A stretch of 64,000 bases of DNA from Verrucomicrobiales bacterium (GTDB lineage Bacteria; Verrucomicrobiota; Verrucomicrobiia; Verrucomicrobiales; V1-33): positions 1 through 64,000 of the forward strand of contig JAQGPJ010000004.1 in the NCBI GenBank assembly GCA_028293125.1, in the 5' to 3' direction. The position numbers and the translations under genes were made by a program. The first letter of the stretch is position 1; each line of letters begins with the position of its first letter. Below are positions 518 to 9,713 of this stretch, piece after piece. The notes below the pieces were generated by a model. That model was not told where the DNA came from and ran no database searches. It saw only the letters and a program-made list of their open reading frames with translations.

Positions 518-563
518 ATAAAAAACCCGGATGGCACCGGCTTTTCAGCCTCACCATCCGGGT
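518..563 (-). terminator. Rho-independent terminator of the rapA-like gene
   Basis: A perfect 10-bp stem (525-534 paired with 554-563, ACCCGGATGG/CCATCCGGGT) is followed on the minus strand by a run of T residues (519-525). It lies 30 bases past the stop codon of the rapA-like gene, as expected for an intrinsic terminator. Confidence 0.85.
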
Positions 564-592: not shown

Positions 593-3526
593 TCAGATCC
601 CCTTCCCGGACGGTCCGCGGCGGAGCAGGCGGAGCTGGTCGAGGCTCAGCACGGGCTCCCCAAGGAGCGGTTTGAGGGTGGCGATCTGGCCTTCGAGGCG
701 CTCGGTCTCCGCAGCGCGCAGGCTGGTGGGCGGCAGGCGCTTCAGGCGGGCGATGTCGGCGTTCAGCATGGCCTCCATCTGATAGGAGGCTTTGCCGGAG
801 AGCTCGCGCATTTTGATCTCCGCGCGCTGGGTCAGACTGCGCATCATGCTGGGGATGATGTTGTAGAGCGGACGGGCGTTGTTGCGCAGCCACTCGCGGC
901 GGCCGTTGCGGACCACTTTGTTGACCACCTCGCTGGTGTACTCGCCGCTCATGTCCTCGAAGTCGTGGCTGATGACCACACGCACGGGAGTCGGCGGCAT
1001 GTGGCGGGAGGTCTGGAGCGAGGGATCGCCGGGCACCGGGGAGGCGAGGAAAATCCCTTCCAGAAGCACGATCTGCGCGCGCTCGTCCTCCCAGACCACA
1101 TAGGCGGTGTTGCCGATGGCGGTGGACAGCAGGCGGTCGGTGGCGCGGAAAACCAGCGGATGGTCCCACGTCAGGAAATCCGCGTCCTCGCGCACCATGG
1201 CGGTCACGCGGCTGTAGCACAGGCCCATGCCGTTCTGCGGGATTTCCTCTAGGCGGAAAGTGGCCTCCGGATTGGGCTTCACCACCACGGTGCGGCCGGT
1301 CTTGGTTTCCACCAGGATGCCCAGCTGCTCCAGCGTGCGGTTCATGTAGATATCCAGCGAGTCGTCCTCGTCCGCCGTTTTCATGCGGGCCGCAGCCTGA
1401 TCCGCGCCATTTTTCCGGCAGGACACGGCCTCCAGGAAGCGGTCGCGGTGCTTGTCGATCTTGCGCAGGTGGGACTCGTGGGAGCTGGCGGATTTTTTGA
1501 TCAGGGCTTTCAGCTCCTCGTCCAGCTTGGGATTGTGCTTCACGCCGATGCGTTTGGCGATGTCGTGGACCGGTTTGGCGAACTCCGCGGAGGTCTCCGC
1601 CTGGGCGGGAGTCCACATTTCAAACGCGTGCACTCCCTCGTGCAGCCAGTGGGCCGTCATTTCCTGGGGTGTGTCCCCAAACACCGGGACCACCACTTTG
1701 AGCGTGCCAGAACGGCAGGAGTTCTCCGCCACGAACAGGCGCTCCGAAGCCTCCTCCAAGGTCAGCGGCGTGTCCCATAGAACCACGAGATCCATGCCGG
1801 GGAAGCTGCGCCCCACCCAGTCCTCGGCACCGACGACCACCACGCAGGGGGCCACATCGTCACTGCCGCGGACATCCGGACCCACCAGCTCCACGATTCC
1901 CTGAACTTTTTTGCTCAGCAGCTTCTCCACCGCGATGGCGCGGCCGCGGCTGGAGCACAGTACCAGCGCGGTGGGGGGAACCACCGGGGCCGGAGCCTCC
2001 TCGCCGGGTGCAGGGGGTGCGGGCGGGACCGGATTCACCAGACCGGCCAGCCAGACGGACAGCGGGGCATCCACCGCGGACGGCACGGCTTTTGCTTTCC
2101 CCTTGGTGGCTTCGGCTGGTTTTCCGTGATGTTTGAACTCCTCCTTCAGCCCTTCCCGCACTTCGGGTTTAAGGGAATCAATCTGCTCCAGCGTGATCTC
2201 CCGCACGGGGATGCCGGTGGCCTGCTGGCGCGTGCAGCGGAAAACATAGCGGCCCTGCTCCTGGCCATCCAGCAGGTAATCCACGATCTGGTCGCGGGCC
2301 TCCTCACGGCCCTCCTTCCAGGCTTTCAGCTGCTCCTTCAGCTTCGGCTCCTCCTTGGTGCACAGCGGCTTGACCAGCGCGTCGGCCTCGCGGTCCCACG
2401 CGGTCACGGACAGCAGCTTGGTCACGGCAGCCTCCACCGCCTCCAACTCCTTGCGGTGGGAGGAAACTTTTCTCGGGGTGGCGAAACCCTCGGGGTCGAT
2501 CAGGTGCAGCCGGCCAAAGTGGCTCCTGGCGTCCTGCTCCGGTCCGGAATCGCTCAGAATCAGCAGGCTTTTGGTGGCTGCCGCCAAGGGCTCCACCGCC
2601 GTCCACGCGGCGTTGCCGCCCTCCTCCGTCCACTCCAGGCTTTCGCCGCCGGCCACCACCACCACATCCCAGCCCGCCTCGGCGGCCGCCGCCGAGCGTT
2701 TGCCGCGTCCGCCCGCCAGGTCCTCCAGGGTGCAGGATTCCCAAACCTCCTCATCGGGAGCGCCAAAGGGATTGGCCACAGATGCCTCCTCCGTTGTTTT
2801 TTTGGCAGTCTTCTTCGCGGGTTTGGCCCCGGCGAAGTCCTCCGCCGAAAGGCGCGTGAAAATCTGACCGAACCGGCGGCGGAGCTCCAGCTCCACCTTC
2901 TCCAGCAGGGCCTCCGGAGCCAGCAGCAGCACGCGGTCGGCGTTTCCGAACGTCCGCAGACGCTGGAGGATCAGACCGGCCTCCACCGTTTTGCCCATGC
3001 CGGGCTCATCGGCCAGCAGCACGCGGGGATGCGCTTGGCGCACCGCCTGCACCGCCACGTAAAGCTGATGCGGACGCGGGTTGTAGCGTCCACTGAAAAA
3101 ACCGCGCAGGGGAGCCCGCAGCGTTTTGAACCGGCGGTAAAGGGCGCGGTGGCGCAGGTTGTAAACCGGCTTCTCGTCCACCTGGGCGTTCAGCAGGCGG
3201 TCAAAAGGCTTACTGAAGGTCAGGGAGTCCGAAAGGCGGCTCTCCTCAATCTTTTTCCCTTTGTTGATGTAGGTCACCAGTCCGTCCTTGTCGATCAGGT
3301 CCTCGACCGTGAACTCCTTGCCCTCCTGCGTTTTCAGCACGTCACCGACGGAGAAGCTCACGCGGGTCAGCGGCGGATTCTCAATGGTGTAAACCCGTGT
3401 GGTTTCGCTGGATGGAAAGACAATGTTCACCCGGTCGGGCTCGACCTTCAGCACCAGACCCAGGCCCAATTCCGGTTCGGTCTGGCTTAACCAGCGCTGC
3501 CCTGCTACAAATCTGTTCACTGCCAT
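593..3526 (-). CDS. rapA: RapA/HepA-like RNA polymerase-associated protein with degenerate ATPase motifs
   Basis: This 977-residue protein is collinear with RapA, the Swi2/Snf2 ATPase that recycles RNA polymerase (about 968 residues in E. coli). The N-terminal Tudor-like part (FVAGQRW, ELGLG, residues 6-90) and the C-terminal RapA domain (FLTWDHP onward, roughly 640-977) are clear. Walker A is kept (GMGKT, 176-180). Motif II, DEAH in RapA, reads AGGE at 292-295; motif III TATP reads SDSGP near 325-329; motif VI, RapA's QRIGRLDRIGQ, reads ERLFVAENSCR at 595-605. The second RecA lobe is shorter and has a Pro/Ala-rich insert near 500-517. It may bind ATP without hydrolysing it, or be a structural RNA polymerase partner. 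The frame is open over its full length, so it is not an obvious pseudogene. It is a single-gene unit with its own promoter and terminator. Confidence 0.85.
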   Translation of the reverse strand: MAVNRFVAGQRWLSQTEPELGLGLVLKVEPDRVNIVFPSSETTRVYTIENPPLTRVSFSVGDVLKTQEGKEFTVEDLIDKDGLVTYINKGKKIEESRLSDSLTFSKPFDRLLNAQVDEKPVYNLRHRALYRRFKTLRAPLRGFFSGRYNPRPHQLYVAVQAVRQAHPRVLLADEPGMGKTVEAGLILQRLRTFGNADRVLLLAPEALLEKVELELRRRFGQIFTRLSAEDFAGAKPAKKTAKKTTEEASVANPFGAPDEEVWESCTLEDLAGGRGKRSAAAAEAGWDVVVVAGGESLEWTEEGGNAAWTAVEPLAAATKSLLILSDSGPEQDARSHFGRLHLIDPEGFATPRKVSSHRKELEAVEAAVTKLLSVTAWDREADALVKPLCTKEEPKLKEQLKAWKEGREEARDQIVDYLLDGQEQGRYVFRCTRQQATGIPVREITLEQIDSLKPEVREGLKEEFKHHGKPAEATKGKAKAVPSAVDAPLSVWLAGLVNPVPPAPPAPGEEAPAPVVPPTALVLCSSRGRAIAVEKLLSKKVQGIVELVGPDVRGSDDVAPCVVVVGAEDWVGRSFPGMDLVVLWDTPLTLEEASERLFVAENSCRSGTLKVVVPVFGDTPQEMTAHWLHEGVHAFEMWTPAQAETSAEFAKPVHDIAKRIGVKHNPKLDEELKALIKKSASSHESHLRKIDKHRDRFLEAVSCRKNGADQAAARMKTADEDDSLDIYMNRTLEQLGILVETKTGRTVVVKPNPEATFRLEEIPQNGMGLCYSRVTAMVREDADFLTWDHPLVFRATDRLLSTAIGNTAYVVWEDERAQIVLLEGIFLASPVPGDPSLQTSRHMPPTPVRVVISHDFEDMSGEYTSEVVNKVVRNGRREWLRNNARPLYNIIPSMMRSLTQRAEIKMRELSGKASYQMEAMLNADIARLKRLPPTSLRAAETERLEGQIATLKPLLGEPVLSLDQLRLLRRGPSGKGI

Positions 3527-3559: not shown

Positions 3560-3587
3560 GCTATAAGGACGCCGGGAACGGGGTCAA
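3560..3587 (-). promoter_or_regulatory. Sigma70-like promoter for the rapA-like gene
   Basis: On the minus strand TTGACC (3582-3587) is followed 16 bases later by TATAGC (3560-3565), about 34 bases upstream of the rapA ATG. The hexamers are close to the -35/-10 consensus. This is inferred from sequence only. Confidence 0.5.
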
Positions 3588-3768: not shown

Positions 3769-4320
3769 TCAGACCGCTCCCTCGGGAGTCGTTTCCACCA
3801 AATCGATGCGGCTGGACAGCAGGGTGTCCCCGTCGAAATCAAACCAGCCCTCAAACCACCGTCCCGCCAGGAAATGGTGGAACCAGTATTGGTCATCCGC
3901 CCACATCTCCTCAAAGGGAATGCGGTCCGCGGGTGTCCACAGCGGGGCCGCCTCCGCGGTTTCCTGCGGCTCTCCCGTGCAGCCGTCGGCGCGGAAGACG
4001 TGGACATACAGGCTCATGCCGTCCACAAACTGAAACCCCAGCCGGCCCGCCTCCCGGACGCCAGAGGGCTGGATGCCCAGTTCCTCCTCGGTTTCCCGCA
4101 GCGCCCCCTCCAGCGGGGTCTCCCCCGCCTCCACCTTGCCGCCCGGACCGTTGATTTTGCCGGCTCCCAGGCCGCGCTTTTTCCGGATCAGGAGCACCTG
4201 TCCGTCCTTCACTACAAAAAGCAGGGTCGCCACCACCGCCGCCCTCCAGGAGGACCAGTCGGTGGGGCGGAATTCGGGAGAGGAGTCAGTCACAGCTCGT
4301 GGCAGTGGGCCAAATTCCAC
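3769..4320 (-). CDS. NUDIX hydrolase, MTH1/MutT-like 8-oxo-dGTP diphosphatase
   Basis: The protein carries a complete NUDIX box (GGKVEAGETPLEGALRETEE) preceded by LIRKKRGLGAGKINGPGG. The C-terminal half (WADDQYWFHHFLAGRWFEG) matches the layout of MTH1/NUDT1 enzymes, which hydrolyse oxidised purine nucleoside triphosphates and so sanitise the nucleotide pool. No ATG precedes the domain. GTG at 4320 is chosen because GAGGGG lies 10 bases upstream; TTG at 4338 and GTG at 4293 are alternatives. About 183 residues, probably cytosolic. It lies downstream of a secreted-protein gene on the same strand with a gap of about 50 bases, so cotranscription is possible. Confidence 0.8.
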   Translation of the reverse strand: MEFGPLPRAVTDSSPEFRPTDWSSWRAAVVATLLFVVKDGQVLLIRKKRGLGAGKINGPGGKVEAGETPLEGALRETEEELGIQPSGVREAGRLGFQFVDGMSLYVHVFRADGCTGEPQETAEAAPLWTPADRIPFEEMWADDQYWFHHFLAGRWFEGWFDFDGDTLLSSRIDLVETTPEGAV

Positions 4321-4372
4321 GCCATGGCAACCCCTCAATCCTTTTATCCGGCCCGGTGACCGGCGGCGCGGC

Positions 4373-7409: not shown

Positions 7410-9713
7410 TCAGGGCAGCGGGAAGCGCAGATTCAGTTCCGCCGCCCATTTGCGGGTGGATTCCAGCACGGCGTGGTCGCCGAGGTTGGAGAGCACTTTA
7501 TGAATGGCGTCCGCGATCTGGACCATTTCCGTCTCCTTCATGCCGCGGGTGGTGACTGCCGGGGTGCCGATACGGATGCCGCTGGGACGGAAGGGGCTGG
7601 CGGTGTCGAAGGGGATGCTGTTTTTGTTCACGGTGATGCCGGCCTCGTCGAGGGTCTCCTGCACGGTTTTGCCGTCCAGTCCCTGCGGGCGCAGATCGAT
7701 GAGCATCACGTGATTGTCCGTGCCGCCGGAGGCCACACGGTAGCCGTTCTCCACCATGCGGGCCGCCAGCGCCTGGGCGTTTTTGACGATCTGCTCCTGG
7801 TATTCCCGGAAGCCGGGCTGCAGGGCCTCGTGGAAGCACACGGCCTTGGCGGCGATGACGTGCATGAGCGGACCGCCCTGGACGCCGGGGAACACCTGAG
7901 CGTCGATTTTTTTGGCGTGCTCCGCCCGGCAGAGAATGATGCCGCCACGGGGACCGCGCAGGCTCTTGTGGGTGGTGCTGGTGACAAAGTCGGCGTGCGG
8001 CACCGGACTGGGATGCACCCCGGCGGCGACCAGACCGGCGATGTGCGCCATGTCCACGAACAGCAGCGCGCCCACGCTTTTGGCGATCTCCGCCATGCGG
8101 GGGAAGTCGATGATGCGGGGGTAGGCGCTGGCTCCGGCGGTGATCATTTTGGGCTTCACCTCCAACGCCATGCGGGCCAGCTCATCGTAGTCGATGCGGC
8201 CGTCCCTTTCGCTGACACCGTAGTGGGTGACATCATAGAACTTGCCCGAGAAATTGGCGGGATGCCCGTGGGTCAGGTGACCGCCGTGGGCGAGGTTCAT
8301 GGTCAGGATTTTGTCACCGGGCTCCAGGAACGCGAAATAAACAGCGGCATTGGCCTGGCTGCCGGAGTGCGGCTGCACATTGGCGTGGTCGGCCCCGAAG
8401 ATTTTCTTCACCCGGTCGATGGCCAGTTGCTCCACCTGATCCACGTTCTCACAGCCGCCGTACCAGCGTTTGCCGGGGTATCCCTCGGCGTACTTGTTGG
8501 TCAGACAGCTGCCCTGGGCCTCCTGCACCGCGCGGCTGGCGAAGTTTTCGCTGGCAATAAGCTCGATGAAGTTCTGCTGGCGGACCTGCTCGCGGATGAT
8601 GCAGGCGGAAATCTCCGGATCCGTCTGCGCCAGGCCGGCATTCATCTTGTCCACCCGCGCCTCATGGCGCCCGCTCTCGAACTGCGTGGCCAGGAAGGTG
8701 TCCGCCATCTCGGCCGCCTTGGCGGGATCCACGTTGCCGGCGAAGACCATGACGTTGGCGTCATTGTGCTTCCGGGTCAGGGCGGCGGCCTCCGTGTCCT
8801 GCAGCAGCGCGGCCATGATGCCTTTGTGGCGGTTGGCGGCGATGCTCATGCCGATGCCGGTGGTGCAGACCAGCAGGCCGGCATCGTAATGGCCATGCAA
8901 CACTCCCTGGCAGACCGGCGTGGAGTAATCCGGGTAATCCACCCGGGAGCTGTCCCGCGTGCCGATATCCTCCACGGTGTGCCCTTTGGCGCGCAGGGCT
9001 TTGACCAGAGCGTCCTTGAGACCCAGACCTCCATGATCCGCGCCGGCGATGATCTTTTTGAGGCCCGTCGCGGAGGGGGCGGGCGGGGAGGAGGCGGGTG
9101 CCGGAGCGGCTTCGGCGGCGGAGGGTGGGGTCATATCGTTGGTTGAGGTTGGGGAGGAAGGGGCGGCGGGGGTTGCGGTGTCGGTGTCCGGATCCTTCCA
9201 GGTGGTTTCGATAAAAGCGTGCACCGTCGGCAGAGCGCGGCGGAAGGTGGCCAAGGTCTTTTCATAGGCCCCCAGCCCATAGCCGATGGGGTCGGGCACA
9301 TCCCGGCCCATCAGGTCGTCATCCGGACAAAACTCGCAGACGAGGTAGGTTTTGGCCGCGGCCTTCGGAAAGAGGGCCTCCAGATGCTCGCGGTGGCCTG
9401 CGGTCATCACAAAGATGTGCGTGGCCTCGTTCACCAAGCTGCGGGTCAGCGGCTGGCTCCGGAAGCGGGAAAAGTCGATACCCTCGCGGGTGCGCAGCAC
9501 CTCCAGAGTGTGCTGGCTGGCCCGCTGTCCGTGGGCGGCGCTGATGCCGGCGCTCTGGATATCGTAATCCGGGGCATTTTTGACCATGGCACGGAAAAGC
9601 GCTTCAGCCATGGGGCTGCGGCAGACATTTCCAGTGCAGACAAAGAGAACGTTTTTCAAGGCGACGGATGCCGCAGGCAGGTTTCCCCGGCCGGACTCCC
9701 GGTCAGAGCCCAC
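7410..9713 (-). CDS. glyA: Fusion: LMW protein phosphatase - ribose-5-phosphate isomerase B - serine hydroxymethyltransferase
   Basis: One uninterrupted 767-codon frame carries three enzymes. Residues 20-172 are a low-molecular-weight phosphatase with CTGNVCRSP (Cys26-Arg32) and the DPIGYG loop. A Pro/Ala/Ser-rich linker spans 173-217. Residues 218-356 are RpiB ([21 protein letters not shown] with Cys283). Residues 358-767 are GlyA, with IELIASEN, the PLP lysine in STTHKSLRG (Lys583) and full family length. GlyA makes glycine and one-carbon units from serine; RpiB interconverts ribose- and ribulose-5-phosphate. In Bacillus subtilis ywlE, rpiB and glyA are separate neighbouring genes, so this looks like a fused operon. 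YwlE's phosphoarginine-selecting Thr is Val here, favouring phosphotyrosine. Start is GTG at 9713; TTG at 9659 is an alternative. An internal ATG near 9134 could make RpiB-GlyA alone. Confidence 0.9.

Follow-up and report, generated by a model that had tools for sequence, protein, structure and literature searches.

A RapA-derived protein without ATPase motifs II, III and VI, conserved beside an active RapA in a family of Verrucomicrobiales

What can a RapA-like protein do for the cell once key motifs of its ATPase are gone? This question is raised by a single 977-residue frame at 593-3526 on the minus strand of the window (the whole 64,000-nucleotide stretch of Verrucomicrobiales DNA analyzed here). 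RapA (HepA) of E. coli is a Swi2/Snf2 ATPase that recycles RNA polymerase (PDB 6bog, 4s20, 7mkn and 8t0l), and the debate over it sets an ATP-driven motor against a guardian that needs no ATP and holds the clamp of RNA polymerase in check. Recent work on RapA with ADP-AlF3 (PDB 8t0l) reportedly argues that ATP drives clamp opening. A sequence-only reading of the window had described the encoded protein as a RapA relative that has lost motifs II, III and VI and may bind RNA polymerase as a pseudo-ATPase. The features of the gene, its product and its flanks are as follows.

3560-3587, minus strand: putative promoter, TTGACC-N16-TATAGC, conserved in five of five genomes of the window's genus
593-3526, minus strand: coding sequence with stop codon of the ATPase-dead RapA paralogue, 977 residues (translation, Pfam, structure match, orthologues in 11 genomes)
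3191-3514, minus strand: N-terminal double Tudor-like domain, residues 5-112 (PF18339 and PF18337), the most conserved part, with 97% identity within the genus
2987-3001, minus strand: Walker A remnant GMGKT, residues 176-180, which is GLGAI or GLGRR in three orthologues
2867-2926, minus strand: RecA1 helix region, residues 201-220, whose E. coli counterpart binds the beta flap-tip helix (PMC8501970)
2783-2824, minus strand: Lys-rich low-confidence insert, residues 235-248 (pLDDT below 50 at 235-250)
2642-2653, minus strand: lost motif II, AGGE for DEAH, residues 292-295 (alignment and AlphaFold model; Glu281 replaced by Gly in 11 of 11 orthologues)
2540-2554, minus strand: lost motif III, SDSGP for TATP, residues 325-329 (alignment)
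1973-2032, minus strand: Pro-rich linker inserted between the two ATPase lobes, residues 499-518 (alignment)
1802-1831, minus strand: altered motif V, GAEDWVGRSF (alignment)
1712-1744, minus strand: lost motif VI, ERLFVAENSCR, residues 595-605 (Arg596 and Arg599 absent in 11 of 11)
626-1702, minus strand: RapA_C region, residues 609-967 (PF12137, 226 bits), the second most conserved part
878-913, minus strand: basic stretch VRNGRREWLRNN of the C-terminal region, nearly invariant and for the most part common to a half-eroded version from a fourth genus (described below)
596-622, minus strand: C-terminal tail RRGPSGKGI, specific to the clade and not seen in those C-termini of active RapAs that were inspected
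519-562, minus strand: intrinsic terminator hairpin with U-run (-30.6 kcal/mol, z -6.0)

The fold of the protein is that of RapA. Both profiles of the RapA Tudor pair scored above the Pfam cut-off (PF18339, 72.7 bits; PF18337, 50.8 bits) and RapA_C was found as well. The alignment to E. coli RapA is collinear across residues 6-967, in agreement with the full-length collinearity noted earlier, and among solved structures only RapA entries match well. The AlphaFold model, which was built with 25 homologues (pLDDT 85.5, pTM 0.82), predicts a RapA fold over the full length, with a double Tudor N-terminal domain, two RecA-like lobes and RapA_C, and a Foldseek search with this model placed RapA entries at the top (PDB 6bog, TM 0.72). 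However, neither SNF2 nor Helicase_C was detected in the window protein above the Pfam cut-off, and the NCBIfam equivalog for RapA (NF003426) scored 512.9 bits, under its cut-off of 576. The protein differs from E. coli RapA in lacking motifs II, III and VI, in its altered motif V, its inter-lobe linker, its near-neutral charge and its C-terminal tail, and in that the N-terminal domain, not the ATPase lobes, is the most constrained part. Because the fold is kept but the full set of ATPase motifs that defines the enzyme is not, we call it a RapA-derived pseudo-ATPase and not a RapA.

The replacement of the catalytic motifs was borne out at each of the three sites. AGGE stands where DEAH is expected, within a base of the position first given for it, SDSGP takes the place of TATP, and SERLFVAENSC that of the EQRIGRLDR of active RapAs. 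Motif V is altered as well (SEIGSEGRNF to GAEDWVGRSF), and in the alignment the adjacent helix 540-553 of E. coli RapA is largely missing. Since the predicted strand 288-292 of the AlphaFold model runs directly into AGGE, we regard these four residues as the Walker B position. A pattern search of the window protein detected no QRxGRxxR, and it detected no DExH-type motif elsewhere in the ATPase lobes, the sole DExx match being DEDD at 719 in the C-terminal domain. The search and the model together rule out that motifs II and VI have merely moved to another part of the protein. With motifs II, III and VI gone, none of them found elsewhere and V altered, all in an intact gene, the sequence supports the view of a probable pseudo-ATPase.

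Intact orthologues were found in 11 of 11 genomes from three genera of the same Verrucomicrobiales family, with 56-82% identity, and comparison with other RapA homologues showed that the motif loss is shared within this one clade (hereafter the dead clade). The position of Glu281 is Gly in every orthologue, and Arg596 and Arg599 are missing from all of them. The Walker A sequence, which had been taken as retained, is indeed present in the window protein, but it is not a feature of the clade, given that its lysine (K183) is kept in eight orthologues and lost in three on two separate branches (GLGAI in one orthologue; GLGRR in the two genomes of a single genus). Because this lysine has been lost in three of the 11, ATP binding by the dead copy is probably dispensable. 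Losses at K183, E281 and R599 were observed in none of 10 active paralogues of the family and in none of 105 other RapA rows of the phylum (47 of order/class plus 58 of order, class and phylum; about a dozen of the 58 are repeats, so that about 94 are distinct).

Each of the 11 genomes also carries a second RapA. Ten of these copies are full-length and have all catalytic motifs; in the eleventh genome (G007) the gene is split over two contigs, the pieces of which show DEAH and QRIGRLDR. The question of whether the window's own genome holds an active RapA is thus answered by the following locus.

Contig C31, 9364-12222 (locus L044, 2359-5232, plus strand): active RapA with DEAH, SGTP and QRVGRLDR; Helicase_C and SNF2 above cut-off

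This active copy has the same domain order as the dead one and groups with the RapAs of related families, in a clade separate from the dead copy. The tree recovered the dead clade as monophyletic (100/100) on a long stem of about 1.2-1.35 changes per site, and the active RapAs of the family as a whole lie apart from it and cluster with those of related families. A search of genome contigs with the single protein gave no match, and an alignment-based search gave ten named records, all from uncultured Verrucomicrobia MAGs. Four of these ten public records (L117, L118, L121 and L124) are titled Akkermansia muciniphila, which looks like mislabelling. In the order-level search, no strong RapA match was found in genus g5 of family f2 of the same order (genomes of 2.2-3.3 Mb), which we take to be perhaps Akkermansia, and it is for this reason that we doubt the label.

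The dead copy is under strong purifying selection. Its omega within the window's genus is about 0.08, compared with about 0.29 for the active copy, and about 0.08-0.16 overall; these NG86 values are rough, as dS is near saturation. The comparison of dN between paralogues of the same genomes holds nevertheless, because it is independent of dS: in five genomes of the window's genus, the dead copy has a dN of 0.113 against 0.321 for its active counterpart, and the corresponding values in four genomes of another genus are 0.139 and 0.257. The gene as a whole shows no relaxed selection; its dN is about 2-3 times below that of the active paralogue, and the dead copy is kept more strictly than the working one.

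The distribution of this constraint along the protein is inverted. The N-terminal Tudor pair, nearly identical within the genus in the dead copy, is only 55% identical in active RapA. In the dead clade, identity was 80% in RecA1, 97% in the N-terminal domain and 85% in the C-terminal part, whereas the four sets of active RapAs gave 75-77%, 54-66% and 53-57%, respectively, so that the inversion is found only in the dead clade. In the active RapAs of the family, the N- and C-terminal domains change faster than the ATPase lobes, as they do in the active RapAs of related families. The long stem followed by slow change fits a change of function and then the fixation of the new one. In the dead clade, evolution has removed the motor and has kept and tightened the remainder, which suggests that the RapA shape does a job without its fuel.

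A fourth genus carries what looks like an intermediate stage of this decay. Its RapA (L102, genome G005) has an intact Walker A, with DDAD for DEAH, TDLP for TATP and KRIGSLDR for QRIGRLDR; in a second genome (L103, G006) it is a fragment. This half-eroded version joined the dead clade in a joint tree (support 99), and it has the basic stretch and a tail, RRGPTGKGI, that corresponds to RRGPSGKGI. The union is probable but short of proof, because both lie on long branches. When the intermediate was omitted from the tree, the sister-family RapAs of two genera (L047 and L048) were no closer to the dead clade than others; one of them, the active L047, already has some of the basic stretch. No second or active RapA was detected in the two genomes of the fourth genus, which are 87% and 77% complete.

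What the remainder might still bind can be considered against the E. coli complex. There, the N-terminal domain of RapA touches the beta' zinc-binding domain (PMC8501970, PMC8666675), RecA1 and RecA2 touch the beta flap-tip helix, and RecA2 touches alpha and beta (PMC8501970). Deletion of the flap-tip helix strongly lowers the stimulation of the ATPase but not RapA binding, and deletion of the zinc-binding domain lowers binding only slightly (PMC8501970). In addition, non-specific DNA binding by RNA polymerase falls about 2.5-fold with E. coli RapA, and ATP makes no difference to this reduction, which has been ascribed to the N-terminal domain holding the clamp closed via the zinc-binding domain (PMC8666675).

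In the dead clade, the position of E. coli E14, the residue that contacts beta' H80, does not vary, and the zinc-binding domain of the family's RNA polymerase retains the partner histidine. The hydrophobic flap-tip contacts L216 and L220 are mostly replaced (by E, S, R and others), and all 11 orthologues lack R545, the one RecA2 residue in a salt bridge to RNA polymerase that active RapAs have conserved; the contact residues R502, E527, R524 and D744 vary among active relatives too. Given that the flap-tip helix serves ATPase stimulation and not binding, the loss of that contact fits the loss of catalysis. However, with the flap-tip patch and R545 both lost, the canonical docking mode cannot be assumed, and since deletion of the zinc-binding domain has only a slight effect in E. 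coli, the conserved N-terminal contact need not suffice for binding. We saw no compensating change in the RNA polymerase of the family, where the zinc-binding domain (six of ten loci read in frame) and the flap-tip helix are E. coli-like. Active RapAs carry a net charge of about -19 to -49, whereas that of the dead clade is about 0; in this clade, 65 positions are invariant that are rare in active RapAs. The loss of R545 together with the deletion of helix 540-553 may mean that the docking mode, or docking itself, differs, and the charge shift may point to a different partner, such as nucleic acid.

Because the N-terminal contact residue is conserved, the motor is lost and the N-terminal effect in E. 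coli is independent of ATP, we propose, with moderate confidence, that this pseudo-ATPase derived from RapA binds RNA polymerase as a non-motor factor. On this proposal, the dead lineage would have split from the ordinary RapA lineage and its ATPase site would then have decayed, probably in steps: a weakening of motif II and of one arginine in motif VI, the state of the half-eroded version, may have come first, followed by the loss of motifs II, III, V and VI and finally, on two branches, by that of the Walker A lysine. Meanwhile, the shell, consisting of the N-terminal Tudor pair and the C-terminal domain, came under very strong constraint. Docking would most likely take place near the RNA exit channel, with the N-terminal domain on the beta' zinc-binding domain and perhaps with the C-terminal part involved. 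The protein could then act passively and independently of ATP, limiting non-specific DNA binding by restraining the clamp or by occupancy, or it could compete with other ligands of the zinc-binding domain, active RapA included.

Other explanations must be weighed against this proposal. We rejected a decaying pseudogene or an assembly artefact: catalytic motifs have been lost, but open frames of about 980 residues in 11 separate assemblies, the low omega and a promoter-like site plus terminator all argue otherwise. The frame had been called intact, with its own promoter and terminator, and the frame and the terminator hairpin 3' of the gene both stand. As to the promoter, a generic scan upstream of the dead copy detected none, but the TTGACC-N16-TATAGC candidate is kept in the five congeneric genomes. 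We also regard as very improbable an active but non-canonical ATPase in which other residues replace motifs II and VI. It could appeal to the Walker A of the window protein and to an acidic residue at the position of H283 (E in eight of 11 orthologues, D in three), but all orthologues lack motif III, the Glu of motif II and the two arginines of motif VI, three lack the Walker A lysine and V is altered, and the RecA lobes, which in active RapAs are conserved best, rank among the least conserved parts in the dead clade.

A scaffold that has kept the RapA shell but serves something else than RNA polymerase (RNA or DNA, for instance, bound via the gained basic residues), and so would be a pseudo-ATPase that is no longer a transcription factor, seems unlikely to us. 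It would account for the charge shift of roughly +20 to +50, the invariant basic residues of the C-terminal region, the 65 clade-specific positions and the lost RecA-lobe contacts. However, conservation is strongest in the N-terminal domain that faces RNA polymerase, E14 is retained, and the basic stretch is in part shared with L047, an active RapA. We consider it decidedly unlikely that the dead copy is a regulator of active RapA, that is, a competitor or partner on RNA polymerase that tunes the loading of the motor. All 11 genomes with a fully dead copy do have a second RapA, but its rate of change is about 2-3 times that of the dead copy, which a tightly coupled pair would not suggest, and the two incomplete genomes of the fourth genus yielded the half-eroded version with no active RapA.

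How far ATP-driven clamp opening applies is something that the dead clade would put to a natural test. The question of motor or guardian becomes directly testable here, because the clade comes with two controls: an active RapA within the same genome, and the half-eroded version from a sister genus. A bolder idea, that the dead RapA serves this family as a general RNA polymerase factor independent of ATP and matters more to the cell than the motor RapA beside it, is tentative and we are inclined to doubt it; if true, it would show that docking on the zinc-binding domain and clamp control alone can carry a function of RapA, with the motor dispensable. Searches of open-licence papers turned up no earlier account of a RapA whose ATPase is naturally dead. 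HelD, the RNA polymerase recycling motor of Gram-positive bacteria, is likewise a helicase-like protein bound to RNA polymerase, with paralogues in one genome (PMC8655204, in which a keyword search found no class of ATPase-dead HelD); however, it is not a homologue of RapA and it inserts into the RNA polymerase channels (PMC8666675).

The gene neighborhood of the dead copy has nothing that is shared across genera, and no conserved neighbor that points to transcription. Just upstream on the same strand lies a NUDIX-domain gene (3769-4338, minus strand), which the five genomes of the window's genus all share and the other genera lack. We rejected an operon or defence-system context, since this gene is conserved within one genus and nothing is common to several genera. 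We also rejected an assignment to the SNF2 defence proteins DISARM DrmD or DpdE, since the NCBIfam scores were 47-63 bits against cut-offs of 500-950, RapA-specific domains are present and the neighborhood does not extend across genera. Elsewhere in the window, a 767-residue frame (7413-9713, minus strand) appears to be a triple fusion of a low-molecular-weight tyrosine phosphatase domain, RpiB and serine hydroxymethyltransferase.
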